Made by a program: the position numbers and the translations under genes
Shown: piece after piece, positions 11,614 to 26,843 of the stretch
Numbering within the stretch: the stretch's first letter is position 1
Layout of the letters: each line of letters begins with the position of its first letter
Virus record (IMG/VR): IMGVR_UViG_3300023174_003957
Coordinates: 1-27,985 of that record
Length of the DNA: 27,985 nucleotides
Source: a virus
Strand: one strand, 5' to 3'
The notes under the pieces: generated by a model
What the model was told of the DNA's origin: nothing
What the model saw: the letters and a program-made list of their open reading frames with translations, nothing else
The model's database searches: none

Positions 11614-11615
11614 AA

Positions 11616-12257: not shown

Positions 12258-12819
12258 ACTAATTGACATTATACACCAGTACAATCTTCGAAATGATACA
12301 AATTATGATTTTGGTACTGATAAAGAATATGGCCACAAATACATAAGCAATTTTTATGAAAAAGAATTTGAAAAATATCAAGATAAACCAATTTCTTTAT
12401 TGGAAATAGGAACACACAAAGGTGGAAGTTTAGCTCTTTGGCATTACTATTTCAAAAATGCTCAAACTATTGTTGGTATGGATGTTGCTGAATTTGGTGC
12501 ACAAATGAATTGTTTGAGATTTAATAATGTTAAAATTATTTATCAAGATGCGTATCTTGAACCTGTTGCCAGTTTTTTACCCAATTACGACATTATTATT
12601 GATGATGGTCCACACACCAAGGAAAGCCACCTACAATCACTAAAACTTTATTTACCTAAACTCAACAAAGGCGGAGTTTTTATTGTTGAAGATATTGCTC
12701 AAATGGAATGGACGGAAGAATATAAATCACTTGTTCCTCCATGGATGACATATGAAATATTTGATATTAGAGAACCTTCTGGTATTTCTGACAGTATTAT
12801 TTTCTGTGTGAGGCATTAA
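12247..12819 (+). CDS. Class I SAM methyltransferase, macrocin/MycE-like
   Basis: I chose ATG 12247 with AGGTG at 12233-12237; a GTG at 12235 is a weaker alternative. The 190-residue protein carries FGTDKEYGHKYISNFYEKEF, then motif I LLEIGTHKGGSLALW (E53, G55), VGMDV (D79), IIIDDGPHTKESH (D119, D120, H123) and GGVFIVEDI. This series matches the sugar O-methyltransferases of the MycE/macrocin group, which use a metal bound by the D-D-x-x-H residues. It overlaps the previous methyltransferase by 11 bp and the next gene by 1 bp. It probably methylates a deoxysugar or hexose in the glycan built by this cassette. Confidence 0.82.
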   Translation: MNIKLIDIIHQYNLRNDTNYDFGTDKEYGHKYISNFYEKEFEKYQDKPISLLEIGTHKGGSLALWHYYFKNAQTIVGMDVAEFGAQMNCLRFNNVKIIYQDAYLEPVASFLPNYDIIIDDGPHTKESHLQSLKLYLPKLNKGGVFIVEDIAQMEWTEEYKSLVPPWMTYEIFDIREPSGISDSIIFCVRH

Positions 12820-13547
12820 TGTCCAGTATTTCTTTTATTCATCTCGCCAGCGCAGGCAAAAAAGTATCTTCTTCTCATATTGTTAAACAAATAAGAAGTT
12901 TGTATCCTGATGCTTATTACCTTTTGGCTTCTGATGGTGCCGATGATTTGGAATCAATTGCCAAAGGTAACAATACCGATTACAAATACTATACAGAAAA
13001 GTTAGGATATCCAGGTTACGATGGCCAAAAGTTGGTTACTTGGTTACAAAGATTTAGAGAGGCTTGCCTTCAAGCTAATACCTCACATATAATGATGGTT
13101 GAAGATGATGTATGGGTAAAGAAACAACTTACAGTACATGATGATTGGGAAATGGCTTGTCATTATCAAGGACATGGTAATATCATGCATAATGGTTTGA
13201 TGGACATGGTGGAACGATTCTCTGGTAAAAGGTCAAACACCAATCAATACGGCGGTGGAGGTGGTTCAATATATAAAGTATCCACATTCTTAGACAATTT
13301 TGAAACAGTATCAAATTGGTTTCTTAATAATACTGATTATGTTAGAAGTTTTTATCCTGAATTAGGTTTTATGGATTGTTATATGCCAATCTACTATATG
13401 TTATGTGGAAAAGATTATACGATTAATCCATATATGGTAGATACGCACAATCATAAAGACAATGGATTTGATTGGGATGGTTTTGTTGAATCAACATCAA
13501 AAGAAATTGAAATTGTAAATAATTATAAAAAATATTATTGGGTATAA
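12819..13547 (+). CDS. GT-A-like glycosyltransferase, hypothetical
   Basis: A 242-residue protein starting in a TAATG overlap with the methyltransferase gene. An N-terminal Rossmann-type strand (ISFIHLASAGKK) is followed by YYLLASDG and the motif IMMVEDDVWV with E95-D96-D97, the usual place of the donor- and metal-binding acidic cluster of GT-A enzymes. Further on are QYGGGGGSIYK (144-153) and GFMDCYMPIYYML. The general design fits capsular or LPS-type glycosyltransferases, but I cannot place it in a named family. Cytoplasmic, with no membrane helix. Confidence 0.68.
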   Translation: MSSISFIHLASAGKKVSSSHIVKQIRSLYPDAYYLLASDGADDLESIAKGNNTDYKYYTEKLGYPGYDGQKLVTWLQRFREACLQANTSHIMMVEDDVWVKKQLTVHDDWEMACHYQGHGNIMHNGLMDMVERFSGKRSNTNQYGGGGGSIYKVSTFLDNFETVSNWFLNNTDYVRSFYPELGFMDCYMPIYYMLCGKDYTINPYMVDTHNHKDNGFDWDGFVESTSKEIEIVNNYKKYYWV

Positions 13548-13548
13548 T

Positions 13549-14346
13549 ATGAATGACATTACTATTGTAACGGCCTTTTTTGACATTGGTCGTGGTGATT
13601 GGACTCCAGATAAAGGACTTCCACATTACCTACACAGAACAACTGATACATATATGGAAAGATTTGGCCATATGGCTAAATTAGAAAATGATATAATTGT
13701 CTATACTTCTCCAGAATTTGTTGATAGAATCAAAGAACTCAGAGGTGGCCGTCCAACCAGCATTTTAACTGTAGATTTTAAAAATAATTTTAAAGTGCTT
13801 CGTGATAAAATTACAAAAATACAAAAAGATCCAGTATATCAATCAAAAATAAATCCCATGCAAGCACGCAATCCAGAATACTGGTCTGCGGATTATGTCG
13901 TAGTAAATTCTTTAAAATCTTCATTTGTAAATCGTGCTAGAGAAACAATAACAACCGATTTGGTTGCTTGGATGGACTTTGGTTATTGCAGAGAAGAATC
14001 TACAAGAAATAATGTAACTCATTGGAAATATCCTTTCAATAAAGATAAAATTCATTTATTCAATATTAAAGATTGGAAAGAAGGAACCTTTATTGAAAAT
14101 GTTATTTTTAATAATGATGTTTATATGACGGGTCCTTGCATCGTTGCTGGTAAAGATATGTGGTTACAATTAGAACAATTAGTCCACCACAGTTTAAATG
14201 AATTGTTTAATGCAAATTTGGTTGATGACGACCAAACATTATTGTTGATGTCTTATCTTTTAAAACCTGAATTGTTTGAGTTACATTCAGTTTCAAAAGA
14301 GGACTGGTTTATTATTTTTAAGGATTATAATGCAAATATTCTTTAG
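13549..14346 (+). CDS. HtrL/YibB-family glycosyltransferase-like protein
   Basis: A 265-residue protein with the signature of the HtrL/YibB (WlaTC) family: TIVTAFFDIGRGDW at 5-18, YLHRTTDTYMERFGHMAKLEN, VVYTSPE-like VYTSPE, then EYWSADYVVVNSLKSSFVNRA (110-130) and LVAWMDFGYCREE. Members occur in enterobacterial LPS-core loci and Campylobacter LOS loci, where they are thought to transfer sugars. It follows the previous gene by one base and overlaps the next by 17 bp. The presence of an LPS-core-type enzyme in a phage supports a host-envelope or LPS-like glycan as the target. Family assignment is strong; the transferred sugar is unknown. Confidence 0.85.
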   Translation: MNDITIVTAFFDIGRGDWTPDKGLPHYLHRTTDTYMERFGHMAKLENDIIVYTSPEFVDRIKELRGGRPTSILTVDFKNNFKVLRDKITKIQKDPVYQSKINPMQARNPEYWSADYVVVNSLKSSFVNRARETITTDLVAWMDFGYCREESTRNNVTHWKYPFNKDKIHLFNIKDWKEGTFIENVIFNNDVYMTGPCIVAGKDMWLQLEQLVHHSLNELFNANLVDDDQTLLLMSYLLKPELFELHSVSKEDWFIIFKDYNANIL

Positions 14347-15067
14347 GGATCCCCCAAATCTAGGTGATTTTTTAAATGTAATACCAGTACTATCGGGCAT
14401 TTATAAATCAACTGGTGAGCAAATTGAATTTGTTCTTCGTCAAGATATGAAAAAATTTAATGGTATCAGAGAATTTTTAAAGTACCAAGATATGTTTAGT
14501 GATGTTCTTTTTGATGATGAAATATTTTCTTTTGGTGATCCTCCTGTTATGATGAGCTCATGGACTAGAGAAGATAAAAAGAATCCATTGAGACCAATTG
14601 AAACTTGTCGCTATGAAAATAACACCAATGATTATTATCCACATCTAAAATTTGAAGTGGATGATTCGTTCATATTAAAAGTTCCTGAATTAAATTTACC
14701 AGTTGCCGATACATTCTATATTGGAGATAGATGGTTCCGTGACGATATGGATATGAGAAGAAAAAGTGGCATCTTATCACATCTTGACAAAGGGGTGTTT
14801 TTAGATTATAATAGACCAATAATGGAAAATGCCTATCTAATTAAGAACAGTAAATTTCCATTTGTTTCCACTTTTACTGGAGTTTCTAATATTGCTGATT
14901 TATTGAATGTAAAACATTTAGTAATTTATGATGATGAAATTAAAATTTGGAATGATAAACCAATTCAATATTCATTTGAAAAACATTATTATGGCGACCG
15001 TAATGGTAAACTCTTATATTTGAATGACCTTAATACAGACAATCTTGATGAACATTTTAAACTATAA
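14330..15067 (+). CDS. GT9/heptosyltransferase-like protein
   Basis: I chose ATG 14330, with AAGGA at 14320-14324; an upstream in-frame start at 14276 lies deep in the htrL-like gene. The 245-residue product begins MQIFFRDPPNLGDFLNVIPVLSGI, the first strand and glycine loop of ADP-heptose:LPS heptosyltransferase-like (GT-B) proteins (compare the L-G-D-x-L-x-x-x-P pattern). The C-terminal part carries FPFVSTFTGVSNIADLLNVKHLVIYDD, comparable with the donor-site region, though the usual D-[ST]-G-x-x-H box is replaced by TGVSNIADLL. It is shorter than cellular GT9 enzymes (about 320-350). It could be a degenerate or non-catalytic relative of the second GT9-like gene at 15536. Confidence 0.65.
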   Translation: MQIFFRDPPNLGDFLNVIPVLSGIYKSTGEQIEFVLRQDMKKFNGIREFLKYQDMFSDVLFDDEIFSFGDPPVMMSSWTREDKKNPLRPIETCRYENNTNDYYPHLKFEVDDSFILKVPELNLPVADTFYIGDRWFRDDMDMRRKSGILSHLDKGVFLDYNRPIMENAYLIKNSKFPFVSTFTGVSNIADLLNVKHLVIYDDEIKIWNDKPIQYSFEKHYYGDRNGKLLYLNDLNTDNLDEHFKL

Positions 15068-15539
15068 AAATAAAACTTATCCACAATTTCAATCTGAAGG
15101 TAACGCATCACAATTTGCTATTCCATTTGCAAAACATTTTTGTAAAGGATACGGAATAGATGTTGGATGTAATCGCCAAGACTGGTGTTTTCCTGGTGCA
15201 ATTGGAGTTGATTTAAATTTCAATGACGGAAACACAGCATACAATTTTGAATATAAAGATTTGGATTATGTTTACTCCAGTCATTGTTTAGAGCATCTTA
15301 CTGATTGGGTTACAGCTCTTGATTATTGGACAGCAAATCTAAAACCAGGTGGAGTATTATTCTTATATCTTCCACATTACAATCAAGAATACTGGCGTCC
15401 ATGGAACAACCGTAAACATAATCACATTTTCACTCCTGAAATTATTAAAGATTACATGATAGACCGTGGTTACATAAATATTTTTCATTCGGAACGTGAT
15501 TTAAACGATTCATTTATAATTGTAGGTGAAAAAATATGA
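15048..15539 (+). CDS. Class I SAM methyltransferase (Methyltransf_11-like)
   Basis: A 163-residue enzyme. The start is uncertain: ATG 15048 gives a natural N-terminus (MNILNYKNKTYPQ) and overlaps the previous gene by 20 bp; an in-frame ATG at 15024 adds eight residues, and neither has a clear Shine-Dalgarno. Motif I is GYGIDVGCNR (34-43), then GVDLNF, then YSSHCLEHLTDW (76-87), which is the motif III position of Methyltransf_11 proteins. It continues with LKPGGVLFLYLPH. Typical substrates in such cassettes are sugars or glycolipids; no direct evidence of substrate. It is the third methyltransferase of the cassette. Confidence 0.8.
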   Translation: MNILNYKNKTYPQFQSEGNASQFAIPFAKHFCKGYGIDVGCNRQDWCFPGAIGVDLNFNDGNTAYNFEYKDLDYVYSSHCLEHLTDWVTALDYWTANLKPGGVLFLYLPHYNQEYWRPWNNRKHNHIFTPEIIKDYMIDRGYINIFHSERDLNDSFIIVGEKI

Positions 15540-16231
15540 TTGTAAATGTTTCTCGTGAAACTTTTGGTGGTGCTATTCGTAACGGCGATTTAATTGCTGT
15601 TGCTAATATTGTTGAACATTTAAGAAAGAATATTCCTGGTTTAAAATTCTATTTTACACCAGGAACTTTATTTGAAGCTGACTATGTGCATAAGATGCAT
15701 CAGTTTTTTTTAGATCATACAGATTATTTTTCATTAGGTACCGGCACGGCTGATTTGCCATGGAAAAGAGTTAATATTTGGGACTTCCGTGATGTTGCCG
15801 GTGATGTTGTAAAGATTCCAAATAATCAACAAAAACAAAAAAAGATTGTTGTGTGTCCTGTATTTGATGCTAAGTATAATACTTATCGTAATTGGCCAAT
15901 GGATGTTTTTGAAAAAATTCTAAATGAATGTGATCAAGCTCAAGGTTATGAAAAGGTAATATTACAATCCGATAATACTCGTTACAGAGATGGTTGGATT
16001 CATAGCTCAGATTTTAATGATAACCTAATACACATTATGCAAGCAGAAATTTATGTTGGTGGTGATACGGGTCTTTCTCATTTTGCTGGTGCATTAGAAC
16101 ATGGTCCTCAACCGGTTTATTATACCTCTAGCCGAGGATTACTACACACCACTCCATTTTATTGGTATACACACAAAAAAGGTACGATGAAAACCTATTG
16201 GTTGGATTTTGAAAGGACAGAATGGCAATGA
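15536..16231 (+). CDS. GT9/heptosyltransferase-like glycosyltransferase
   Basis: A 231-residue protein overlapping the methyltransferase gene by 4 bp. The C-terminal half contains IYVGGDTGLSHFAGAL, with D177-T-G-L-S-H182, which matches the donor-binding D-[ST]-G-x-x-H-x-A box of GT9 heptosyltransferases, preceded by KIVVCPVFDAKYNTYRNWPMD and VILQSDN strands. The N-terminal GT-B domain is short. Members of GT9 add heptose or similar sugars to LPS. Together with the GT9-like gene at 14330 this could form a split or paired system, but each may act alone. Cytoplasmic. Confidence 0.75.
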   Translation: MIVNVSRETFGGAIRNGDLIAVANIVEHLRKNIPGLKFYFTPGTLFEADYVHKMHQFFLDHTDYFSLGTGTADLPWKRVNIWDFRDVAGDVVKIPNNQQKQKKIVVCPVFDAKYNTYRNWPMDVFEKILNECDQAQGYEKVILQSDNTRYRDGWIHSSDFNDNLIHIMQAEIYVGGDTGLSHFAGALEHGPQPVYYTSSRGLLHTTPFYWYTHKKGTMKTYWLDFERTEWQ

Positions 16232-17235
16232 AAAAGATTTTTATAACTGGCGTAGCAGGTTTTTTAGGTAGTCATTTAGCAGATGCATTTCTAGCCAAAG
16301 GATATCAAGTTGCAGGAATTGATAATCTTTTAGGTGGATATCGTGATAATGTACCTGAGGGCGTTGAGTTTCATAATTTCGATTTGCTTGAATTCGATAA
16401 ACTTAAAAGTATAATGACCGGATGTGATGTTGTTTACCACACTGCGTGTACCGCATATGAAGGACTTTCTGTGTTCTCTCCTTCTCTAGTTGTTCAAAAT
16501 ACTACACAAATTGCTGTTAATGCAATGACTGCTGCTATTCAAGCCGGTGTTCCTAAGTTTGTACATTGTTCATCTATGGCCAGATATGGTACTCAAGATA
16601 GAGTTCCTTTTACCGAAGATATGACTTGTAAACCTCAAGACCCATACGGTATTGCCAAGTATGGTACAGAATTATTATTACAAAATCTTGCCGAGATTCA
16701 TGGTATCGAATTGGTAATTGCCATTCCACATAACATCATTGGTCCTAGACAGAAATATGATGACCCATTTAGAAATGTGGCAAGTATTATGATTAACTTA
16801 ATGTTACAAGGTCGTCAGCCAATCATTTACGCAGACGGATCGCAAACCAGGTGTTTCTCGGATATCTCGGATGATGTCGGTTGTCTTGTTGAATTTGCAG
16901 AGAATCCTAAGGCGGTTGGAGAAATATTTAACATTGGTCCAGATGAAAATCCGGTAACTATTTTAGAGTTGGCTCAAATTACCGCAAAATTATTGAATTT
17001 TAACTTGGATCCCGTTTTCATGCCAGGTCGACCACAGGAAGTAAAACATGCAAATTGTTCAGCCGATAAAATTCGTTATTTCTTTGGTTATCAAACTAAA
17101 ACCACTCTAGAACAATCATTACAAAAACAAATAGATTATATTAATTTACGTGGACCGAAACCATTTGAATACCATCTTCCTTTGGAAATAATTTCAGATA
17201 AAACTCCAAAAACTTGGACACAAAAATTATTTTAA
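16222..17235 (+). CDS. NAD-dependent epimerase/dehydratase (extended SDR)
   Basis: A 337-residue nucleotide-sugar epimerase or dehydratase. The start ATG 16222 has AAAGGA at 16212-16217; a second ATG at 16228 is possible. The dinucleotide-binding motif is ITGVAGFLGSH (G10, G13, G16), followed by GIDNLLGGYRDNV (D34 suits NAD). Catalytic residues are HCSSMARYG (S117/S118) and Y142-x-x-x-K146 in PYGIAK. Further blocks are PHNIIGPRQKYDD and FSDISDDV, typical of UDP-glucose 4-epimerase and related enzymes. It could make a donor sugar for the transferases upstream. It is the last gene of the glycan cassette and is followed by a 124-bp spacer. Confidence 0.9.
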   Translation: MAMKKIFITGVAGFLGSHLADAFLAKGYQVAGIDNLLGGYRDNVPEGVEFHNFDLLEFDKLKSIMTGCDVVYHTACTAYEGLSVFSPSLVVQNTTQIAVNAMTAAIQAGVPKFVHCSSMARYGTQDRVPFTEDMTCKPQDPYGIAKYGTELLLQNLAEIHGIELVIAIPHNIIGPRQKYDDPFRNVASIMINLMLQGRQPIIYADGSQTRCFSDISDDVGCLVEFAENPKAVGEIFNIGPDENPVTILELAQITAKLLNFNLDPVFMPGRPQEVKHANCSADKIRYFFGYQTKTTLEQSLQKQIDYINLRGPKPFEYHLPLEIISDKTPKTWTQKLF

Positions 17236-17306: not shown

Positions 17307-17314
17307 TATAAATA
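17307..17314 (+). promoter_or_regulatory. T4-type late promoter TATAAATA
   Basis: The perfect octamer TATAAATA lies in the spacer between the epimerase gene and the gene at 17360. The expected transcript start is about 10-15 bp further on, leaving a leader of about 35-40 nt before the ATG. In T4 this octamer is the only element needed for late transcription by gp55-bound RNA polymerase. The remainder of the spacer (17236-17306) shows nothing else I can support. It fits a switch from the glycan cassette to late genes. Confidence 0.7.
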
Positions 17315-17359
17315 AGCGAATCGGCAACCAAAGTGTGTTGCAAATCTAAAGGAAATTCA

Positions 17360-18550
17360 ATGTTATCATTTAAGTCATTCTTAACTGAAGAATCTGAACA
17401 AGGTTCTGAACTCAAACATATACATCATGCAGAAGATAGACCACTAATGCACGGTCATTCTGGTTTTGAACATGCACACGCCGCTTTAATGCAAGCTCAT
17501 GCTCATATGAAAGCTGGCCACAAAAATACCAATTTGACAATGAAATATGATGGTTCTCCATCAATTGTTTTCGGCCATCATCCTAAGAATGGTAAATTCT
17601 TTGTTGCAACCAAATCTGCGTTCAATAAAACTCCAAAGATTAACCATACAGAAAAAGATATTGATAAAAACCATGGCCACGCTCCTGGTTTAGCAAAAAC
17701 ACTCAAGCACGCTTTGAAACATTTACCAAAGGTAACACCTAAACATGGTGTATACCAAGGCGATTTGATGCACCACGCCGATACAAAAACTTTACACGAA
17801 AGTTATATCATAGAAGCGAAAGGTGATGTTTCATTTACTCCTAACACAATCACTTACACCGCAAAAGGTAAAGAAGCGGCTAAGATTAAAAAATCTAAAG
17901 TTGGTGTGGTAGTTCACCACCAATATAGTGATGACATGAAACACGCTTCGCCTCATGTAGATACATCAAAGTTTAAAGAACATCCAGATGTACACATTCA
18001 TGGCGCTGAACACGACACAAGTAAAGTTAAACATTCCGATGAGAATGAGAAACACTTTCAAAAACACATGGCTGCAGCAAAAGAGATACATGATACGCAT
18101 GGCCACAAGATGTATGATTCTATACACAAAAAGCATAGCGGAGAAGCTGGCCACCTATCGACATACATAAACAAGACAGTACGACACGATGAAGTACCAA
18201 GTGTTAAAGGATTCAAAGAACATCTACATGATATTCACGCAAAACAAGCTGCCAAAGTTACTACTGAAAAGTCTAAATCTGAAAAAACAAAAGAAGGTGC
18301 TTCACAAATTTCTCATGTAGAAAAACATAAAGCACATTATGGAAATTTATTATCGATGCATCATCATCTACATCAAGCCAAAAATGCTTTGGTAAAATCA
18401 TTAGAAACACATGAAGGACATTACCAACATCACATCGCTGGTAAAAAATCAAAACCCGAAGGATTTGTGGTACACCATGATAGTCAACCAACCAAGTTGG
18501 TTAATCGTGCAGAATTTGCTAAACAAAATTTGTTAAAAGTTCGTAAATGA
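17360..18550 (+). CDS. His-rich KxDG ligase-like protein with capsid-targeting-type N-terminus
   Basis: I chose ATG 17360 (AAAGGA at 17348-17353) over a GTG at 17333. The 396-residue protein begins MLSFKSFLTE, which matches the T4 capsid-targeting pattern with E10. It then shows LTMKYDGSPSIVFG, in which K62-x-D64-G65 looks like motif I (the adenylated lysine) of the DNA/RNA ligase and nucleotidyltransferase superfamily. GVYQGDLM (130-137) and KVGVVVHHQY (180-189) fall where motifs III and IIIa would lie, KPEGFVV (E367-G368) resembles motif IV and TKLVNRAEF (378-386) resembles motif V. A long charged, helical insertion fills 200-360. By my count about 55 of 396 residues are His (about 14%). 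I think this is the DUF6267-type family of T4-like phages. Ligase chemistry is inferred from motifs only. Confidence 0.75.
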   Translation: MLSFKSFLTEESEQGSELKHIHHAEDRPLMHGHSGFEHAHAALMQAHAHMKAGHKNTNLTMKYDGSPSIVFGHHPKNGKFFVATKSAFNKTPKINHTEKDIDKNHGHAPGLAKTLKHALKHLPKVTPKHGVYQGDLMHHADTKTLHESYIIEAKGDVSFTPNTITYTAKGKEAAKIKKSKVGVVVHHQYSDDMKHASPHVDTSKFKEHPDVHIHGAEHDTSKVKHSDENEKHFQKHMAAAKEIHDTHGHKMYDSIHKKHSGEAGHLSTYINKTVRHDEVPSVKGFKEHLHDIHAKQAAKVTTEKSKSEKTKEGASQISHVEKHKAHYGNLLSMHHHLHQAKNALVKSLETHEGHYQHHIAGKKSKPEGFVVHHDSQPTKLVNRAEFAKQNLLKVRK

Positions 18551-20304
18551 AATCATTTTTAGATTTAGTCCAAGAAGCTGAATCATCACAAAAACATCAT
18601 GTGATGACTTTTGGCCGCATGAATCCTCCTACAACTGGCCACTTAAAACTTATTCATAAAGTAAAAGAAGTTGCTGATAAACAAAATGCTGGGCATACCG
18701 TCATAGTTTCACATTCACAAGATTCCAAAAAGAATCCACTATCAGGTGAACAAAAATTAAAACATTTAAAACGTTATTCTCCTGGTACCAATTTTAAAAC
18801 TTCTTCAAAAGAGCACCCTTCTATTTTTCATCACGCTGCCGATTTACACAAGAAAGGTGTGACACATCTTCATGTTGTGGTTGGTTCTGACCGTGTTAAA
18901 GAATTTAAAGATTCTCTACACAAGTATAATGGTGTAAAAGGTAAACACGGACATTACGACTTTAAAAAGATTACAGTACATTCCGCCGGCCACAGAGATC
19001 CTGATGCTGAGGGTTCCGCCGGAATGTCAGGTACCAAAATGAGAGAACATGCCAAAAATAAAAACTTTGGAGAATTTAGAAAAGGTGTTCCTGAACATGT
19101 GTCCGATAAACATGCTAAAGAACTAATGCACGACACTCGTAAGGGTATGGGTTTACACGAACAATATAACCGTGGTCAATTCAAAGCAATTTTTGTGACT
19201 GGTGGTCCAGGTTCTGGTAAAGATATCGTAATTCGTGAAGCTATTGCTGAATCGAAGATTGTCGAATTGAATTTTGTACAGGCTAAAGAATACTTGGTTG
19301 ATAAACAAAAACTATCAGAAAAAACAAATGATTTCCGTAGAGAAGCTATTCGTAGAAGAGGTCCATTAATTATTAACGGACCAGCCGATGACACCGAAAA
19401 ACTATCATATATAAAAGAGGAATTGGAAGAATTGGGGTATGACACCATGATGATTTTTGTCAATACCACCAATGAAGTTAGTAAGGAGAGAAACTCAGCA
19501 TTATCTAGAATGATGGTGGAATCTGTACGGTATGACAAATGGTTGAAATGTCAAGAAAATACTAAATATTTCAAAGAAGCGTTTACCGATTTTATTGGTT
19601 TTGATAATACTGGTAATATAGACACCAAAGAAGAAGATATTACAGAGGTGTATCAATTTACTAAACAATTCTTGGATGCTGGCAATATTGGTGATATCGC
19701 TAGTGATTGGAAAAATAGGAATGTTTCATTATTTAAGGAAGAAAAAAATGTTAAAAGCACTAATCGATTTTATAAAATTAAAACCTCGCCAGAACTCAGA
19801 GCAAGTGGCCTCGATAGTTTGCCCCCCGACAATCGAGCCGGAGACCCAAGCGCAGACGACATCAAGTGGAACGCAAACAAAACCCGTGGAACCTACACCT
19901 TCCGCACCTACAGCGAAGCCCAAAACCCAAGCCTCAAAATCTCGCCAGTCCCCAAAGAAAGCAACTTCTCCAAAGACAAAGAAAAAGTAGGCAAAAAACG
20001 GTTTACCGACATACAGTCGGTAAACCAAAGAATGAGAAATGTGACCGGAATAGGTCCAGAATTCGATACACGCCAACAGGGAACAGTATATCCCATGTCC
20101 GGACTAGGCGATGTAACATATAGAGAACAAAAAGAATTTAGTAAATTTAGAAAAGTACTAGAAGCTATAGATGACCCTGGTGCTAATGATATGGGTGTTG
20201 GTGGTGTTCTTGGTGGTTCAACTAATAAAGAACCTTTGCAAACTTATAAAGATGCCGATAAAAATATTGGTATTCAAATAAAACTTAAAAAGAAAAAGAA
20301 ATAA
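18547..20304 (+). CDS. Nucleotidylyltransferase-kinase fusion with capsid-targeting-type N-terminus
   Basis: A 585-residue protein overlapping the ligase-like gene by 4 bp. It begins MKSFLDLVQE (E10, capsid-targeting pattern). Domain 1 (about 18-180) is a cytidylyltransferase-like adenylyl- or cytidylyltransferase: TFGRMNPPTTGH with T29-T-G-H32 in the HxGH place, and MSGTKMR (160-166) in the ISSTxxR place. Domain 2 (about 212-380) is a P-loop kinase: IFVTGGPGSGKD with K225. The plan resembles NadR (NMN adenylyltransferase plus ribosylnicotinamide kinase), but the substrate is unknown. From about residue 410 to 480 codon use changes sharply to C-ending codons, with a second frame open at 19748-19990; the C-terminus (ending in Lys-rich IQIKLKKKKK) returns to normal use. 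Confidence 0.88.
   Translation: MKSFLDLVQEAESSQKHHVMTFGRMNPPTTGHLKLIHKVKEVADKQNAGHTVIVSHSQDSKKNPLSGEQKLKHLKRYSPGTNFKTSSKEHPSIFHHAADLHKKGVTHLHVVVGSDRVKEFKDSLHKYNGVKGKHGHYDFKKITVHSAGHRDPDAEGSAGMSGTKMREHAKNKNFGEFRKGVPEHVSDKHAKELMHDTRKGMGLHEQYNRGQFKAIFVTGGPGSGKDIVIREAIAESKIVELNFVQAKEYLVDKQKLSEKTNDFRREAIRRRGPLIINGPADDTEKLSYIKEELEELGYDTMMIFVNTTNEVSKERNSALSRMMVESVRYDKWLKCQENTKYFKEAFTDFIGFDNTGNIDTKEEDITEVYQFTKQFLDAGNIGDIASDWKNRNVSLFKEEKNVKSTNRFYKIKTSPELRASGLDSLPPDNRAGDPSADDIKWNANKTRGTYTFRTYSEAQNPSLKISPVPKESNFSKDKEKVGKKRFTDIQSVNQRMRNVTGIGPEFDTRQQGTVYPMSGLGDVTYREQKEFSKFRKVLEAIDDPGANDMGVGGVLGGSTNKEPLQTYKDADKNIGIQIKLKKKKK
19748..19990 (+). CDS. Possible overlapping gene in +1 frame of the kinase gene
   Basis: An 80-codon frame with ATG 19748 and AAGGA at 19735-19739 (8-nt spacing), ending in TAG at 19988-19990. 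It predicts MLKALIDFIKLKPR, a short amphipathic helix, followed by a Pro/Thr/Ala/Lys-rich tail ending PKTKKK. The frame begins just before and ends exactly where a GC-rich patch stops: I count 97 G or C in 19801-19980 (54%), against about 27-32% in the 120 bases before. Pro/Thr/Ala/Ser bias is partly forced, because the main frame there uses C-ending codons, so second position of this frame is C. That makes the coding claim moderate. No known relative. Confidence 0.35.
   Translation: MLKALIDFIKLKPRQNSEQVASIVCPPTIEPETQAQTTSSGTQTKPVEPTPSAPTAKPKTQASKSRQSPKKATSPKTKKK
20000..20026. other. Perfect 11-bp inverted repeat (hairpin)
   Basis: GGTTTACCGAC (20000-20010) and GTCGGTAAACC (20016-20026) are fully complementary around the loop ATACA. 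Ten bases separate it from the stop of the overlapping frame. It lies inside the kinase coding region. On the plus strand no T-run follows, but on the minus strand the stem is followed by GTTTTTTG, so only a minus-strand intrinsic terminator would fit; no minus-strand gene is found there. Confidence 0.75.
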
Positions 20305-20315
20305 CGGAGAAAAAA

Positions 20316-21911
20316 ATGTTTACAAAAAGTAAGGTAAGCCAATCTTTAGTGGATGCTGTTAAAAATATTATTAATGAAGCTGGTCCAATTAAAGAACCTA
20401 CTTCTACAGGCATGAAGGTTTATGGCCGTAGTTATGGTAATTCTGCAAAAGCTAAACAAGATCAAACTAAATCTTCAGTTGATGATCTTAAAGGTCCTAA
20501 AACAAAAGAATTGATGCAAAAGGACAAAGAAGATTACGTGAAAACAAAAGGCAAGTACGATGAAGCCGCCAAGCCAGATTACTTGGACTTTGATAAAGAT
20601 GGTAATAAAAAAGAGCCTATGAAAAAAGCTTTGGCTGACAAAGAAAAAATGCAAAAAGAAGAACTCAAAAAAGAAGAACTCAAAGGCAACCAACACAAGA
20701 TTGATAAAAATAAAAATAACAAAATAGATGCTCAAGATTTTGCCATTCTCCGTGGCCAAAAGAAAGTCAAAGAAGATATGTATTTTGCGAAAAAATTAAT
20801 TGAAGGTATTAAGCGTTCTGATGTTCCTGCTTCTGTTCGCAAAGCTCGTGGTGATGCACCATTAACACCAGCAGAAGTAAAATCTGGTTCTAAAGATTCC
20901 ATTTCTGATTCAAAGAATCTTGCAAAAGCACGTAATGAAGAAGTTGAATCTTTAGATGAAAAAAATGTGCCAACAAGTCCAGAAAAATGGGCTAAAGCCA
21001 AAGCTGCAGCTAAGTCCAAATTTGCCGTGTATCCTTCTGCTTATGCCAACGGCTGGGCTTCAAAGAAATACAAAGCAATGGGTGGCGGTTGGAAATCAGC
21101 CAATGAAGAAGTTGAACAAGAAGAAGAATTGATTGATGAGAAGGCTGGATATTCTGCTAAAGCTGCTCGTGCAGGTAAAGATATTGGCAAACCAGGCAAA
21201 GCATTCTCCATGATTGCAAAGAAAGCTGGTGAGCGTTATGGTTCTTCTGAATCCGGCAAACGAGTTGCTGGCGCCATTTTAGCTAAATTACGTAAAGAAG
21301 ATGAAGATTGGTCTGATGAAGATATTGATGCTCTATTTGAAGTTTATGAATTAGAAGAGCGTAAAATGTCCGACTCTGAAATGAAGAAGCGTGAAGATAT
21401 CGTCAAAGGCATGAAAAAAGGTTTATCAGGTTTTAAAGCACGTTACGGTGCTCGTGCTAAAGATGTAATGTATGCTACAGCCACAAAACAAGCAATGAAA
21501 GAAGGGGCTGAAGATTCTGCTGCAATAACAACCGACACATTAGTTGGTCGTATGCCTGGTGGTAAATCAAATGATTTTAAATCTTATAAATTGAGAGTTA
21601 GACCATTGGATAAAGAAGGCGAACACCAGCCAAAAGATTCTACACCAAAGGCTATTCAACCTGACGATACTCCAGCAAGAAAATCACACGAAACCAAACA
21701 ATCACTAAAACTTAAAGAAGGTAAACGTCCCGAAACGGATGATGCACCTCCATTTGAAGGACCTTATACAAAGATTCCAAGTGATGTTAAGGACAAATCT
21801 GGAGCAGTTCACACACCAATGTCAAGAGCTAGAGATTTAGCCAAATCTGCAATGAAAAAACTCAAAACTGAAATGTTAGGTAAAATAGGAACTTCAGAGA
21901 GCAAAAAATGA
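20316..21911 (+). CDS. Multi-module late protein with EF-hand loops
   Basis: A 531-residue, highly charged protein with GGAG at 20306-20309. The N-terminus (MFTKSKVSQSLVDAVKNIINEAG) ends in I-N-E|A, which is a gp21-type prohead protease site. Modules in order: DFDKDGNKKE (91-100), a partial EF-hand loop; DKNKNNKIDAQD (130-141), a full 12-residue EF-hand/dockerin-like loop with acidic or Asn residues at 1, 3, 5, 9 and 12; a KFAVYPSAYANGWASKKYK block (235-253) of a kind seen in many environmental phages; YSAKAARAGKDIGKPGKAF plus RYGSSESGKRVAGAIL (279-323); and SGFKARYGARAKDVMYATATK (371-391). No catalytic motif is visible. A 15-bp tandem duplication at 20655-20684 gives the repeat KEELKKEELK. 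Probably a virion-associated or packaged protein. Confidence 0.8.
   Translation: MFTKSKVSQSLVDAVKNIINEAGPIKEPTSTGMKVYGRSYGNSAKAKQDQTKSSVDDLKGPKTKELMQKDKEDYVKTKGKYDEAAKPDYLDFDKDGNKKEPMKKALADKEKMQKEELKKEELKGNQHKIDKNKNNKIDAQDFAILRGQKKVKEDMYFAKKLIEGIKRSDVPASVRKARGDAPLTPAEVKSGSKDSISDSKNLAKARNEEVESLDEKNVPTSPEKWAKAKAAAKSKFAVYPSAYANGWASKKYKAMGGGWKSANEEVEQEEELIDEKAGYSAKAARAGKDIGKPGKAFSMIAKKAGERYGSSESGKRVAGAILAKLRKEDEDWSDEDIDALFEVYELEERKMSDSEMKKREDIVKGMKKGLSGFKARYGARAKDVMYATATKQAMKEGAEDSAAITTDTLVGRMPGGKSNDFKSYKLRVRPLDKEGEHQPKDSTPKAIQPDDTPARKSHETKQSLKLKEGKRPETDDAPPFEGPYTKIPSDVKDKSGAVHTPMSRARDLAKSAMKKLKTEMLGKIGTSESKK
20655..20684 (+). repeat. 15-bp tandem repeat, two copies
   Basis: The unit AAAGAAGAACTCAAA occurs twice in a row, in frame, within the EF-hand protein gene. 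It encodes KEELK twice, lengthening a charged helix by five residues. It looks like a recent slippage duplication. Confidence 0.85.
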
Positions 21912-23275
21912 CAAAAAAATTAAAAGATATTATTGGCGAAGCTAGTGAACAACAACTTCTAAATGTATATTTGAATTCGAGAGGAATTAATCCTAAATTT
22001 GTTACAACAGATACAAAAATTGCTCACGCAAAATCCTCACAGTTTGCAAAATGGAAAGCAGACCACCAAAATGATAGACAGTTTATTGAAGAACTGGATT
22101 TATACGAAGGTGCAGATAAAGAAGATGTGTTATCGTTTGACATTCCATTATTCATTCGTATTTTAGAATTGGCTCGTGAAGATGTTAAAGAGGATATGGA
22201 ACTCCACCGTATCACAGAAAGACTCCTTTCGATACGCAAAAAAGGTGTTTTGACTATGGATGATTATGATTTTATTGCAGGTTTAAAGAAAATTAAAGAA
22301 TCTATTGAAGAAGAACATATCGATGAAGTTTATCCTACAGGAGTACAAGGCCATCTATCTCAAGGTACATTGGATTCCATAAAAAACAAGCGTAATGTAA
22401 AGGTTAATTTAGGTACTCCAACTTATAAACCAAAACCAAAATCTTTGGCCAAGAAACCAGCAAAAAAATTATCTTTCATAAACAGATTATTTAAAACTGA
22501 AGAAACAGAATTAGAAACAGAAGCATGGGACAATAGTGTAACTAAAATTAAAAAAAGTTTAAGAAAAGGTAGTTACAATGTTAAACCAACAGCATTAGAA
22601 AGATTTCGTGCAGCTGCAGCAGAACGAGCAAAAAAGCACGCTGAGATTGAAAAGAAACAATCGAAAGATGGCTCTGGTATGACTGCTGCTATTGACCGAT
22701 TGGAAAAACATCTAAACAAAGAAGAAGTAGAACAGATTGATGAACTTAAAAAGTCCACAGTATTTTCTTGGTTAAAACAACAACCAGTTGTACCCGAGAA
22801 AAAACCAGGTATGAGTAGAAAAGACCACAATAAAAAGATTAAATCTCATAGTAAGAGTTGGAATAGAGCTTTAGACCGTTTAGCAGGTTATAAACCAACA
22901 TCAGAAGATACATTTCAAGATTCTTATGCCGCCACACAAACAACTGGTATGGAAATTGTTGATTTACCAGCAGAAACCAAAGTAAACAGAAAAGAGTTAT
23001 CCAAATCAGCAAGAATGATTAAATCTCTATACAAAAAATTAGATATGAAAGAGGAACTTTATGACCATGAAAAAGAAGATAAATCTGTAGTTACCTATGG
23101 TAAAAAACCTACCATAACTAAAATTGACAAAAAAATGAATGCGGGTGACAAAGAACCCCAAGCCGCAGCAGTTTTAACTGGAGGTAAAACTTTAACTGGT
23201 CAGAACAGAGATACTCTGGAAATTGATCCTTTAATGAGAAAACCTGGTCCATTAGACCAAAACAAAAAAACATAA
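21908..23275 (+). CDS. Late-module protein with IIGE-A N-terminus, function unknown
   Basis: A 455-residue, charged protein overlapping the previous gene by 4 bp. Its N-terminus MTKKLKDIIGEA ends in I-G-E|A, the prohead-protease site pattern. Blocks I recall from other environmental T4-like phages are LLNVYLNSRGINPKFV with TDTKIAHAKSSQFAKWK (17-50), and FDIPLFIRILELAREDVKEDMELHRITERLL (78-107), a helical region. The rest is Lys/Glu-rich and probably disordered, with an ERFRAAAAERAKKHAE helix and a KPTSEDTFQDSYAAT stretch. No enzyme motif, signal or membrane helix is visible. It could be a scaffold-like or packaged internal protein. Confidence 0.8.
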   Translation: MTKKLKDIIGEASEQQLLNVYLNSRGINPKFVTTDTKIAHAKSSQFAKWKADHQNDRQFIEELDLYEGADKEDVLSFDIPLFIRILELAREDVKEDMELHRITERLLSIRKKGVLTMDDYDFIAGLKKIKESIEEEHIDEVYPTGVQGHLSQGTLDSIKNKRNVKVNLGTPTYKPKPKSLAKKPAKKLSFINRLFKTEETELETEAWDNSVTKIKKSLRKGSYNVKPTALERFRAAAAERAKKHAEIEKKQSKDGSGMTAAIDRLEKHLNKEEVEQIDELKKSTVFSWLKQQPVVPEKKPGMSRKDHNKKIKSHSKSWNRALDRLAGYKPTSEDTFQDSYAATQTTGMEIVDLPAETKVNRKELSKSARMIKSLYKKLDMKEELYDHEKEDKSVVTYGKKPTITKIDKKMNAGDKEPQAAAVLTGGKTLTGQNRDTLEIDPLMRKPGPLDQNKKT

Positions 23276-23277
23276 GA

Positions 23278-23285
23278 GATAAATA
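23278..23285 (+). promoter_or_regulatory. Probable late promoter GATAAATA
   Basis: GATAAATA differs from the T4 late octamer TATAAATA only in the first base. It lies in the 40-bp gap before the Ig-like gene, just upstream of AAAGGAG (23304-23310) and the ATG at 23316. The spacing leaves a short 5' leader. This fits high late expression of a virion surface protein. A one-base mismatch and AT-rich context keep it tentative. Confidence 0.45.
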
Positions 23286-23315
23286 ACTAACAACGGACAT
23301 TTAAAGGAGAAAAAG

Positions 23316-24038
23316 ATGTCATCGCACGGAAATTACGATAATGCAGCCAATGCACCATATTGGGCTGTCAACTCAACAATAGTTAACGCAACCAATGTGA
23401 AAGCCAATTATTCGGCTCCAACAGCGGCCAATGTAGCTTTACTATACGGTAACACCACATCTGGTGCTTATACTGCCGGTGAAACCATTGGTTTGTTCAT
23501 GGTCGATGCAAACGAGCAAGATGCTCAAAAAGCGCTTGGTACTCCTCCTGCACACAAAGGATGGAACTTAAAAACGACTGGTTCTGGTGGTCGTGCAGGT
23601 CGTGTTCAATGGGAAACATTAGTTGCTTTGGCAATAGGTTCTTCAGATAACAATGATGATGATACCACATTACCAGATTCAGTTATTACTATTACATCAC
23701 AACCTTCCACATTACAGGGTCCAGTTAGTGCAGCTTCTGCAAATACTGTAGCGTTCTCTGTAACTGCTGCAATCACTGCAGGCGCATCAGCTGCTTTGTC
23801 ATATCAATGGCAAGTTAATAACAACTCTGGCGGAACATGGGTTAATATTGATCCTGGTACAAATGTGTCAACTGGCCAACCTGGTGCTATGAACAAAACT
23901 GGTGCTAATACTGCGACATTAACATTAGATCCAACAGGTACAGCTGCAAATAACTTTGTATTCCGTTGTGTAGTAACAGCGGCAGGTACCGGTGCATCGG
24001 CAACTTCTGCTAATGGCCGTATCTTAATTACTGCCTAA
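23316..24038 (+). CDS. Virion surface (decoration-type) protein with C-terminal Ig-like domain
   Basis: A 240-residue protein. The N-terminal domain (1-110) has blocks shared by many environmental T4-like phages: NYDNAANAPYWAVNS, LLYGNTTSGAYTAGETIGLF, VDANEQDA and GWNLKTTGSGGRAGRVQWETL. An Asp-rich hinge at 111-119 leads to an Ig-like domain (about 123-240) with SYQWQV (W165) and FRCVVTA (C218); the partner Cys is absent, so no disulfide is expected. Ig-like domains on phage heads and tails bind carbohydrate weakly on cell surfaces or mucus. It lacks the capsid-targeting N-terminus of its neighbours, which agrees with an exterior place. Exact role (outer capsid or tail) is inferred. Confidence 0.8.
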   Translation: MSSHGNYDNAANAPYWAVNSTIVNATNVKANYSAPTAANVALLYGNTTSGAYTAGETIGLFMVDANEQDAQKALGTPPAHKGWNLKTTGSGGRAGRVQWETLVALAIGSSDNNDDDTTLPDSVITITSQPSTLQGPVSAASANTVAFSVTAAITAGASAALSYQWQVNNNSGGTWVNIDPGTNVSTGQPGAMNKTGANTATLTLDPTGTAANNFVFRCVVTAAGTGASATSANGRILITA

Positions 24039-24391
24039 TGTTGAAATTTAATGAGTTTTTGGAGAATGACGGAGATGACTTAACGGTTATCTCCGTTTCT
24101 TCCTTAGAGATTGATAAAATCAATGAAGAATTAATATTATCATTAAATGAATCATCTGTCAATCCTTATTCTGATTGGAACAATTGTCGGAAGGTTTTGT
24201 CAAATTTTAACATCAATTTACCTAAAACAATATTTGAAGATGTTGATGAGGGCGAAAAGATTGTAATACTCAATTGTGAAGATACTGATTATTATTTTTA
24301 CTACTGTTTTTATTTGAATGAAGGTTATTATGAATCATTCGCTACAGTAACAGATGAATCAGGATTGGAAGAATTGTTAAAAGAAGAATAA
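24038..24391 (+). CDS. Small acidic protein, N-terminus MLKFNEFLEND
   Basis: A 117-residue, strongly acidic protein starting in a TAATG overlap. MLKFNEFLEN is close to the capsid-targeting pattern, but residue 10 is N with E at 9, so it may be a variant or coincidence. The middle (SDWNNCRKVLSNFNINLPKTIF) and aromatic-rich strand DTDYYFYYCFYLNEGYYESF suggest a small alpha/beta fold. No known family comes to mind. It lies between the Ig-like protein and the DUF7207-like gene. Confidence 0.7.
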   Translation: MLKFNEFLENDGDDLTVISVSSLEIDKINEELILSLNESSVNPYSDWNNCRKVLSNFNINLPKTIFEDVDEGEKIVILNCEDTDYYFYYCFYLNEGYYESFATVTDESGLEELLKEE

Positions 24392-24395
24392 TAAT

Positions 24396-24782
24396 ATGTT
24401 TGATAATTTGACTGATGATAATTTTGTGATGTATGCAATGAAATATTATAATTCACCATTGTGCATAATGTCAGAATTTGAGGGTGATATAAAAAGAATA
24501 AAATATCTAAAAAGATTATTTCGTAGATATAAAGTTACCAAGTTTGTTAAAGAAAGGTTAATTTTAAATCATATTATTTTATTAAATAATGTTTTTGGGC
24601 CGGAAGCCACAACAAGAATATTGTTTTATAAAATAGATCAAAGAGATTATGATGTATTAAAAACATTTTTAATGTATTTAAATATTTTGCCTGATATGAT
24701 TTATGGTATTGATGGAAAAAATATACGAACCGGAGATATTCCTTTGGATATCAATATTGCAGAAATATTACAACGAATATGA
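24396..24782 (+). CDS. DUF7207-type protein conserved in T4-like phages
   Basis: A 128-residue helical protein with the strongly conserved blocks of a common cyanophage and T4-like gene: MFDNLTDDNFVMYAMKYY, EFEGDIKRIKYLKRLFRRY, then ERLILNHIILLNNVFGPEATTRILFYKI and TFLMYLNILPDMI. I associate these with DUF7207, whose function is unknown. Its usual neighbours are structural and late genes. No signal peptide or membrane segment. Start ATG 24396 lies four bases after the previous stop. The family call is from memory and could not be checked. Confidence 0.82.
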   Translation: MFDNLTDDNFVMYAMKYYNSPLCIMSEFEGDIKRIKYLKRLFRRYKVTKFVKERLILNHIILLNNVFGPEATTRILFYKIDQRDYDVLKTFLMYLNILPDMIYGIDGKNIRTGDIPLDINIAEILQRI

Positions 24783-25099
24783 AAACATTTAAACAATTTG
24801 TAATCGAAGAATACTTAGATGAAAAATCTCCAGCTTGGCAAAGAGCTGCGGGTAAAGATCCTAAAGGTGGTTTGAATCGTAAGGGTATTGCTTCATATCG
24901 TAGAGAAAATCCTGGTTCCAAATTGAGTATGGCTGTTACAACAAAGCCATCAAAATTAAAACCAGGATCCAAAGCCGCCAATCGTAGAAAATCATTTTGT
25001 GCAAGAATGGGTGGCATGAAAAAACGTTTAACATCTGCAAAAACAGCAAATGATCCGGATAGCCGTATCAATAAAGCATTAAGAAAGTGGAATTGCTAA
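24779..25099 (+). CDS. DUF6321-like small basic protein with capsid-targeting-type N-terminus
   Basis: A 106-residue basic protein overlapping the previous gene by 4 bp. It begins MKTFKQFVIE with E10, the closest match in the window to the T4 internal-protein leader MKTYQEFIAE. The rest is the conserved unit SPAWQRAAGKDPKGGLNRKG, SYRRENPGSKL, KSKAANRRKSFCARMGGMKK (65-82) and LTSAKTANDPDSRINKALRKWNC, which I recall as DUF6321. After cleavage at E10 a small, very basic protein would remain, suited to DNA binding inside a head. Two Cys (C74, C106) could pair or bind metal. Function unknown. Confidence 0.82.
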   Translation: MKTFKQFVIEEYLDEKSPAWQRAAGKDPKGGLNRKGIASYRRENPGSKLSMAVTTKPSKLKPGSKAANRRKSFCARMGGMKKRLTSAKTANDPDSRINKALRKWNC

Positions 25100-25779
25100 T
25101 GAGAAGTTTCAAAAACTATCTTGGTGAAGATTTACGCAAGTGGTTTAAGCAGAAGTGGGTTCGCATGGACACCAAAGGTAATATTAAAGGTGATTGTGCA
25201 AGAGAACCAGGCGAAGGCAAACCAAAGTGTTTACCCCAGGCCAAAGCACACGCAATTGGCAAAGAAGCTCGTGCAGCAGCTGCTCGTAGAAAGCGTAGAG
25301 AGGATCCTAATCCAGAACGCCGTGGTGCACCAATTAATGTACGAACAGAAGCATGCTGGACAGGATATAAAGCAGTTGGTTTGAAAAAGAAGGGTAACAG
25401 AATGGTGCCAAATTGTGTACCAGAAGAAACAGATTTAAAAGATAGATTTAAGAAATACATTAAACCAATAGTAAAAACAACTTCAAAGATTGAGAAAATA
25501 TCCAATCCAGCAGGACGAACAACTGACCATGTGGAGTACAAAGTTACTGAACCAACAGGTATGGTTCAAAGGTTTAAATCTAAAAGAGAAGCACAAGCAC
25601 ATTTCGATTCATTAAAAGAAGATGGTGCTATGGGTGGTTCTGCTGGTCCAACGAATGTGGCTGGTGGTGGTGCAATCGCAGGCATCGGTGTAGGTAAAGA
25701 TGGTGAACCTGGTGTCAATTTAAAAAAGAAAAAAACTCCGGTCCTTATGTCGATTCGGAGAAAAACACCTAAGGTTTAA
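25099..25779 (+). CDS. Basic Cys-motif protein with capsid-targeting-type N-terminus
   Basis: ATG 25099 overlaps the previous stop (TAATG) and is preferred over an in-frame GTG at 25087. The 226-residue protein begins MRSFKNYLGE with E10. A first unit (11-70) has DLRKWFKQKWVRMDTKGNI, GDCAREPGEGKPKCLP (C33, C44) and AARRKRREDP. A second unit is ACWTGYKAVGLKKKGNRMVPNCVPE (C86, C106), a motif found in many environmental phage proteins. The C-terminus (190-226) is Gly-rich: AGPTNVAGGGAIAGIGVGKDGEPGV, then LKKKKTPVLMSIRRKTP. The paired Cys units may bind zinc. No catalytic residues are evident. Confidence 0.8.
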   Translation: MRSFKNYLGEDLRKWFKQKWVRMDTKGNIKGDCAREPGEGKPKCLPQAKAHAIGKEARAAAARRKRREDPNPERRGAPINVRTEACWTGYKAVGLKKKGNRMVPNCVPEETDLKDRFKKYIKPIVKTTSKIEKISNPAGRTTDHVEYKVTEPTGMVQRFKSKREAQAHFDSLKEDGAMGGSAGPTNVAGGGAIAGIGVGKDGEPGVNLKKKKTPVLMSIRRKTPKV

Positions 25780-25781
25780 AA

Positions 25782-26276
25782 ATGTGGTTTTTGTCATTCA
25801 TACCTGATTGGATTTTACAATGGGCAATACATGGTCTGGTTATACTTGGATTGTTATTGACATTTATAGGTTCACTTGTTAAATTTATACCTGTAATTCA
25901 ACCATACGCTTTGGTTGGCAGACAATTAGGTATTGTGTTATTAGTTGTAGGTGTATTCTTTGAAGGAGGATATGCCACAGAAATGTCATATCGTGCTAGG
26001 ATAGCCGAAATGCAAGCGAAGATAAAAGAAGCAGAAATTAAATCTGCAAAGGTTAATGAAAAATTGGCAATCGAAGTTAGTAAGAATAAAGAGTTGATTA
26101 AAGAGAAGGTGAATAGAAATGCTAGGGATATTGAAGCAAAGAGAGAAGATATTAATTCTAAGTGTGAGTTGTCTGATGATGCTTGGATGCTCTACAACCG
26201 TGCCATTGAGCCAAAAATTTCCAGAGGCCCCTCAAGTGCTAATGGAGCCCGCTCCGGTTCTAAAGCCTCTAAGTGA
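25782..26276 (+). CDS. Inner-membrane spanin (i-spanin)-like protein
   Basis: A 164-residue protein, two bases after the previous stop. Two hydrophobic helices (about 12-35 and 45-62) anchor it in the inner membrane, followed by a predicted periplasmic coiled coil at about 68-123 (RARIAEMQAKIKEAEIKSAKV onwards). A CELSDDAWMLYNRA block near the C-terminus resembles the end of phage Rz proteins. Its 3' 158 bases also encode the lipoprotein at 26119 in the +1 frame, the classic Rz/Rz1 overlap. Classical i-spanins have one N-terminal helix, so the extra helix is unusual. Spanin role is inferred from architecture. Confidence 0.75.
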   Translation: MWFLSFIPDWILQWAIHGLVILGLLLTFIGSLVKFIPVIQPYALVGRQLGIVLLVVGVFFEGGYATEMSYRARIAEMQAKIKEAEIKSAKVNEKLAIEVSKNKELIKEKVNRNARDIEAKREDINSKCELSDDAWMLYNRAIEPKISRGPSSANGARSGSKASK

Positions 26277-26412
26277 GAATAAGAAAACATTAGCTGACCT
26301 TTTACAAAATGCTAATGAAAATTATGGACTTTACTATGAGTTGCAAGATAGATACAATGCATGGCAGTTATGGTATAAACAACAAAAACAAATATTTGAA
26401 AGTGTAAAATGA
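26119..26412 (+). CDS. Outer-membrane lipoprotein spanin (o-spanin, Rz1-like)
   Basis: A 97-residue protein starting at ATG 26119 within the i-spanin gene, +1 frame, preceded by AGGT at 26107-26110. A signal peptide (KQREKILILSVSCLM) ends in the lipobox M-L-G-C24, so Cys24 should be lipidated and moved to the outer membrane. Residues 25-52 are Pro-rich (VPLSQKFPEAPQVLMEPAPVLKP), as usual in Rz1-type proteins, and the rest is helical (LADLLQNANENYGLYYELQDRY). With the i-spanin it would fuse inner and outer membranes in the last lysis step. It is longer than lambda Rz1 and extends past the i-spanin stop, then overlaps the nuclease gene by 4 bp. Confidence 0.82.
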   Translation: MLGILKQREKILILSVSCLMMLGCSTTVPLSQKFPEAPQVLMEPAPVLKPLSENKKTLADLLQNANENYGLYYELQDRYNAWQLWYKQQKQIFESVK

Positions 26413-26843
26413 AAAAACTACTAACATTATTATTGCTATTACCTACATTGGTTATGGCACAAAAAACTCCACAAGGTGTAACCTATGATGCTCAGATTGT
26501 CCGTGTAAACGATGGCGATACTGTTGTCATAGCAGCTCCCTTTTTACCAGCACCACTTAAACCAGAACTTGCCGTTAGAATATTCGGCGTTGATACACCA
26601 GAAAAAGGATTCAGAGCTCAATGTCCTTCAGAAGATGCCAGAGGCCAAGCCGCTACTGAATTCACAAAAAAAACCGTGGTGGGTTCCAACAGCCGGCAAG
26701 TTGTGTTGTATGGATGGGATAAATTCGGGGGCCGTGTCTTGGGAGATATCATATTAGATGGTAAATCATTACGATCAGGATTAATTCAAAATGGATTTGC
26801 TCGTGAATATTTTGGTGAAGCAAAACAATCATGGTGTAATTAA
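26409..26843 (+). CDS. Exported thermonuclease (SNase family)
   Basis: A 144-residue protein with a signal peptide (MKKLLTLLLLLPTLVMA, probable cut after residue 17). The SNase fold follows: IVRVNDGDTVVI with D35 and D37, AVRIFGVDTPEKG with R57, D62, T63 and E65 (the equivalents of SNase Arg35, Asp40, Thr41 and Glu43), and KFGGRVLGDI with R109 (equivalent of Arg87). All catalytic residues are present, so activity is likely: Ca2+-dependent cleavage of DNA and RNA outside the cytoplasm. Two Cys (72, 142) might form a disulfide. It lies between spanin and lipoprotein genes, so it is probably made at lysis and acts in the periplasm or in released debris. Confidence 0.9.
   Translation: MKKLLTLLLLLPTLVMAQKTPQGVTYDAQIVRVNDGDTVVIAAPFLPAPLKPELAVRIFGVDTPEKGFRAQCPSEDARGQAATEFTKKTVVGSNSRQVVLYGWDKFGGRVLGDIILDGKSLRSGLIQNGFAREYFGEAKQSWCN

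Follow-up and report, generated by a model that had tools for sequence, protein, structure and literature searches.

The locus studied here raises the question of why several unrelated proteins of one phage begin with nearly the same ten residues. The window, by which we mean the whole stretch of 27,985 nt that was analysed, is a 28-kb record of a T4-superfamily phage with a family B DNA polymerase, UvsX and a gp41-type helicase, and megablast of it against phage records gave no match. Four unrelated late proteins, referred to by the first position of their genes (17360, 18547, 24779 and 25099; Table 1), were found to open with M-x-x-F-x-x-[F/L/Y]-[L/V]-x-E10, and no further gene among the 35 in the window starts with this strict motif. 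The leaders have positions 4, 7, 8 and 10 in common: phenylalanine at 4 in all, F, L, F and Y, respectively, at 7, leucine or valine at 8, and glutamate at 10. They are very probably real head-targeting signals; the mechanism itself is known, but its occurrence in such a setting has largely gone unrecognised. We estimate at about 0.86 the probability that they act as T4-type capsid targeting sequences, i.e. that the products of a late block are loaded into the prohead, cut by a gp21-type protease and ejected with the DNA.

Table 1. Features of the leader-bearing block in the window. A slash marks the putative cleavage position.
Feature	Position	Strand	Size and pI	N-terminus	Basis
T4-type late promoter TATAAATA	17307..17314	+			exact match, 53 nt upstream of 17360
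DUF6267 ligase-like protein	17360..18550	+	396 aa, pI 9.5	MLSFKSFLTE/E	PF19782, 317 bits
Nucleotidylyltransferase + P-loop kinase	18547..20304	+	585 aa, pI 9.4	MKSFLDLVQE/A	PF01467, Zeta_toxin-like P-loop
Basic protein	20316..21911	+	531 aa, pI 9.4	longer leader ending V15-I18-I19-N-E21/A	sequence, relatives
Basic protein	21908..23275	+	455 aa, pI 9.4	MTKKLKDIIGE/A (L5-I8-I9-E11/A, register shifted by one)	sequence
Ig-like head/virion structural protein	23316..24038	+	pI 4.9	no leader	phrog_613 head protein, E 1e-9
Small acidic protein	24038..24391	+	117 aa, pI 4.1	leader-like MLKFNEFLEN, without E10	sequence
DUF7207 protein, conserved block neighbour	24396..24782	+		no leader	PF23837, 127 bits
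DUF6321 basic protein	24779..25099	+	106 aa, pI 10.7	MKTFKQFVIE/E fused to domain	PF19846, 70 bits
Small basic mosaic protein	25099..25779	+	226 aa, pI 10.2	MRSFKNYLGE/D	phrog_727 and others

The first-pass annotation had reported all four ten-residue leaders, and their occurrence is beyond chance. The strict motif stands at 4 of the 35 gene starts of the window as against 1 of its 204 internal methionines, and when residues 2-30 were shuffled, a mean of 0.02 matches was obtained and none of 20,000 trials reached four. When the window was pooled with 176 related loci (2.1 Mb in all), the motif was found after 6.6% of first ATGs and only 0.15% of internal ATGs, where it is about 40 times rarer. 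All strict matches on two long contigs of relatives, G001 and G004 (157 and 116 kb), fall within the cargo block. These statistics use the strict ten-residue motif only, which was chosen because a relaxed motif of variable register also picks UvsX (MSFLNDIAKE) and other non-virion proteins. With regard to the start codons, that of 17360 has a Shine-Dalgarno-like site (AAAGGA) close upstream and is preferred over a GTG at 17333, and that of 25099 overlaps the stop of the preceding gene (TAATG) and is preferred over a GTG at 25087.

Short motifs can arise by chance, and mosaic domains are common to some of the small basic proteins, which would be in keeping with coincidence or common ancestry as the origin of the shared N-termini. 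This explanation is nevertheless refuted by the shuffles, by the rarity of the motif at internal ATGs, by BLAST, which found the leader-bearing bodies in the window to be mutually unrelated, and by domains that are found both with and without the leader. In the podophages HTVC115P (gp68) and HTVC035P (gp29), the DUF6321 protein starts with the domain itself (MAKSPAWQRK...). Similarly, DUF6267 carries the leader in the clade of the window phage and lacks it in the cyanophages S-CREM2 (58890-59777), S-SZBM1 (S-SZBM1_141; locus L198, 7986-9179) and S-SCSM1 (221406-222290), its leaderless status in S-CREM2 being judged from an alignment that starts about 7 residues after the annotated start. As DUF6267 occurs in both forms, one and the same enzyme has either acquired or shed the leader. 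In the AF2 model of DUF6267 (pLDDT 85, pTM 0.83), residues 1-18 are a low-confidence segment (pLDDT <50), within which residues 4-11 are modelled as a helix. The leader is therefore a detachable module.

As for the two enzymes, KxDG (K62-D64-G65) and EGxV (E367-G368-V370) of 17360 are invariant down to 33% identity. They represent motif I and motif IV, which are typical of covalent nucleotidyltransferases and ligases. A Foldseek comparison of the DUF6267 fold with the PDB gave nothing at E <0.001, an RNA editing ligase and DNA ligases being found only as insignificant matches, and the term ligase-like is therefore based on the motifs. The product of 18547 matches PF01467 above the cut-off, and in a Foldseek comparison its fold matched NadD as well as polynucleotide and adenylate kinases (E about 1e-4); both a NadD-like and a P-loop kinase fold are present. 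Profiles of both enzymes gave no significant match in a sequence search of the PDB.

The remaining proteins of the block are more varied. The longer leaders ending in I-x-E/A that had been proposed for 20316 and 21908 share the register of the strict motif, and six relatives of 21908 carry a strict ten-residue leader, e.g. MKTFKTYIKE/A. The EF-hand label given to 20316 was abandoned, since Pfam and PHROG searches gave no support for it and only two DxDxDG-like stretches are present. The N-terminus of 24038 is leader-like, as claimed, but has asparagine at position 10; in 8 of 12 distinct relatives it is strict, with E10. The Ig-like protein 23316 has no leader, in agreement with the first-pass annotation.

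Genetic analysis of T4 IPIII assigned targeting to residues 4 and 7 and processing to residues 8 and 10 (PMC9026906), and these are the fixed positions of the leaders described here. The leader recurs in related genomes. Orthologues were picked by protein body alone and their starts by distance, and column entropies were then computed. In DUF6267, positions 4, 7, 8 and 10 show entropies of 0, 0.25, 0.14 and 0 bits, while positions 2, 5, 9 and 12-16 drift (1.5-2.8 bits). The corresponding values for the nucleotidyltransferase are 0.13 (position 4) and 0.27 (position 10), and positions 7 and 8 are hydrophobic in most of its 54 distinct N-termini, position 7 being occupied by K, T or D in about one sixth. 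An alignment of this enzyme from 40 relatives has only M1, K2, F4 and E10 invariant before residue 23. As the codons at positions 4, 7, 8 and 10 vary synonymously, selection acts on the protein.

Applied to the T4 genome, the strict pattern returned IPII, IPIII and gp61.1, and loosening position 4 to any hydrophobic residue added gp24 and Alt, so that four of the five annotated T4 matches are proteins known to be processed or to lie inside the head. The leader MKTYQEFIAE, which had been ascribed to IPI-III collectively, is correct for IPII and IPIII, but IPI starts with MKTFKEFTSTTTPVSTITE/A and has a 19-residue propeptide. The T4 protein gp61.1 (AF158101, 19130-18966, minus strand, locus L213), to which no function is assigned, starts with the strict leader MKTFKEFIKE/D and, judging from this N-terminus, may be an internal protein of T4 that has so far gone unrecognised. 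A homology between gp61.1 and the C-terminal tail of 25099, suspected by eye, was rejected, as PHROGs puts gp61.1 and a relative of the tail in separate families.

The first-pass annotation had proposed looking in related genomes for the leader and for a gp21-like protease, and both checks spoke in favour of its interpretation. A gp21-family protein exceeding the Pfam cut-off was found in 8 of 11 long contigs of relatives and gp23 in 9 of them, and an L-N-E site is conserved around residue 52 in the gp23 of the relatives. The record of the phage itself, which is only a 28-kb fragment without head genes, contains no gp21. It is conceivable that the leaders target the prohead core and that many of them stay uncleaved, in which case E10 would contribute to docking, not to a protease site, and the cargo would keep its N-terminus. 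The T4 D10 variant, which retains targeting while its processing is blocked (PMC9026906), is in line with this, as are N10 in 24038 and the often acidic P1' residue (E or D, as in DUF6267 and 25099), where T4 leaders have A or S. However, E10 is present in 49 of 49 distinct N-termini of DUF6267 and in 52 of 54 of the nucleotidyltransferase, which is stricter than docking alone needs, and both gp21 and the gp23 site are found in relatives. We therefore consider such a lack of cleavage unlikely and favour targeting followed by a cut after residue 10; 24038 itself might be targeted but uncut, by analogy with T4 D10.

TATAAATA is no more frequent in the window than expected by chance (2 matches versus 3.9 expected). 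Its position is what is conserved: of 75 distinct sequences from upstream of the block in relatives, 64 contain it, at 51-66 nt and nearly always at 51-55 nt, against a background of 1.2%, and the block is therefore very likely late. Late in infection, the block would be transcribed from this T4-type promoter. The leader would form a short amphipathic helix, whose face made of F4, [F,L,Y]7 and [L,V]8 would dock on the scaffold core of the prohead, and the basic enzyme or small protein that follows the leader would thereby be built into the prohead. A gp21-type protease would then cut after E10 and free the cargo, which would stay among the packaged DNA and be ejected along with it. The window phage thus probably loads enzymes into its head along with the DNA and delivers both to the cell together.

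Several genes outside the block were also recorded. The product of 8538-9797 is related to the S-SCSM1 virion protein ORF90 (E 2e-6, shared INKWSPADIY); it has no leader, and TATAAATA stands upstream of it at 8442. Between this gene and the DUF6267 gene, 10082-17235 holds, by eye, glycosyltransferase-, methyltransferase- and NAD-epimerase-like genes, an island that S-SZBM1 does not have there. Adjoining the helicase gene, 7426-8535 matches PF14236 (DruA, a Druantia defence protein; E 2e-9) and phrog_19197. A protein that resembles staphylococcal nuclease and apparently has a signal peptide is encoded at 26409-26843, next to an Rz-like spanin candidate (25782-26276) and an overlapping lipoprotein-like ORF (26119-26412).

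The strongest evidence comes from published virion proteomics of other T4-like phages, in which leader-bearing homologues have been found in purified particles. The order polB-uvsX-gp41-...-DUF6267-nucleotidyltransferase-virion proteins is common to the window, S-SZBM1 and S-SM1. In S-SCSM1, ORFs 89-93 are all listed as virion proteins; among them, the NMNAT ORF91 starts with MKSFLQFLKE/A, and ORF92 shares the stretch PDYLDFDKDGNKKEPMKKA with 20316. The domain of 24779 and the core domain of 25099 recur in the S-SCSM1 virion protein ORF29, and 23316 is a homologue of S-SZBM1_136, a virion protein strongly detected by MS. The virion nucleotidyltransferase of S-SM1 starts with MKKFSAFLNE/A, the S-CRM01 kinase, cited as virion-associated, with MISFDQFLSE, and the detected nucleotidyltransferase of S-SZBM1 with a nine-residue variant, MRFRQFIIE/A. 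Taken together, these reports place homologues of the nucleotidyltransferase in the virions of four cyanophages, of the kinase in two and of the SAM lyase in one. The nucleotidyltransferase of P-HM2 has no leader, and the NMNAT of S-CBWM1 was set aside, as this is a different, non-T4-like phage and the N-terminus is unrelated.

In S-CREM2, according to the published list, all four proteins with a strict leader were detected, compared with 52 of 219 overall (P = 0.003): ORF6, a SAM lyase (MKDFDSFLEE), ORF14, a kinase (MKRFDAFLTE), ORF136 (MQTFSMFFSE) and ORF154, the nucleotidyltransferase (MKNFSSFLTE). Variants were detected as well, in ORF13 (MKDLHSFLTE) and in ORF12, which has LRFASFMAE/A near its N-terminus. 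An S-CREM2 gene set (OR473000, locus L199, 3837-13331, minus strand), whose products have leaders or variants of them and were detected in virions, comprises the SAM lyase, an HNH/Cas9-annotated protein, an APH-like kinase and small proteins, and a similar gene set is present in S-CRM01 (L219, L220). By contrast, the small strict-leader proteins S-SZBM1_191, S-SZBM1_192 and S-SCSM1 ORF30 are absent from the detections reported for these phages. When the three phages with complete lists are combined, 5 of the 8 strict-leader proteins were reported as detected as against 1.6 expected (P = 0.009), a result driven by S-CREM2.

The authors of the proteomics left open whether such enzymes are cargo or CsCl carry-over, and one could accordingly suppose that abundant proteins adhere to the particles and that the leader serves otherwise, e.g. 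in recruitment to a replication or assembly compartment. Yet DNA polymerase, UvsX, gp32 and ribonucleotide reductase, which are abundant, are absent from the S-CREM2 list as published, while its four strict-leader proteins are present. The leaderless DUF6267 proteins of S-SCSM1, S-SZBM1 and S-CREM2 are likewise absent from the virion lists of the same phages, and the leader residues match the T4 targeting sequence. Carry-over is therefore very improbable, and packaging directed by the leader is preferred.

The likeness to T4 extends from the ten-residue leader, with hydrophobic positions 4, 7 and 8 and E10 as in IPII and IPIII, to unrelated, mostly basic cargo, late expression, and the presence of gp21 and gp23 in relatives. 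In contrast to T4, the leader is found here on a ligase-like protein, a nucleotidyltransferase-kinase and DUF6321-type small proteins of uncultured T4-superfamily phages, the leader genes form a contiguous block of at least four, and P1' is often E or D rather than A. N-terminal signals likewise load ejected proteins in the cases of T4 Alt, the propeptide-bearing ejection proteins of Salmonella SPN3US and phiKZ, and the packaging signal of P1 DarB. In both T4 and the giant phages, the prohead protease cuts after E. However, several giant-phage propeptides exceed 100 residues, unlike the ten-residue leader (PMC5694885), and the P1 Dar proteins have no consensus N-terminus in common (PMC9024508). 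A further parallel is found in T4-like cyanophages (S-SCSM1, S-SZBM1, S-CREM2, S-SM1 and S-CRM01), which have a virion-associated NMNAT/cytidylyltransferase, kinase and SAM hydrolase; their nucleotidyltransferase is homologous, lies in a syntenic position and mostly carries the same leader. In their accessible parts, the cyanophage virion proteomics reports list the proteins and note no leader or targeting mechanism. In the open-access papers surveyed, the term capsid targeting sequence is used for T4, P1, P22 or giant phages, and the only one of them that also mentions a cyanophage is a T4 review. As this search covered open-access literature only, it is not certain that the leader is described here for the first time.

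The leader provides a specific and testable reason for the presence of NMNAT-like enzymes, kinases and SAM hydrolase in cyanophage particles. It also provides a sequence rule, by which the ten N-terminal residues suffice to find injected proteins in T4-like genomes. An enzyme that enters together with the genome can be active from time zero, be it to counter host defences or to reset metabolism. Which of these roles the cargo would take on entry, be it NAD supply, RNA repair or anti-restriction, is a matter of speculation. Beyond this phage, we lean slightly towards the view that aquatic phages of the T4 superfamily use the capsid targeting sequence as a general code for delivery, in which a conserved late cargo island would load the ligase-like enzyme, the nucleotidyltransferase-kinase and lineage-specific enzymes such as SAM lyase, protein kinases and an HNH nuclease, so that NAD or RNA repair and anti-restriction would act before phage gene expression.
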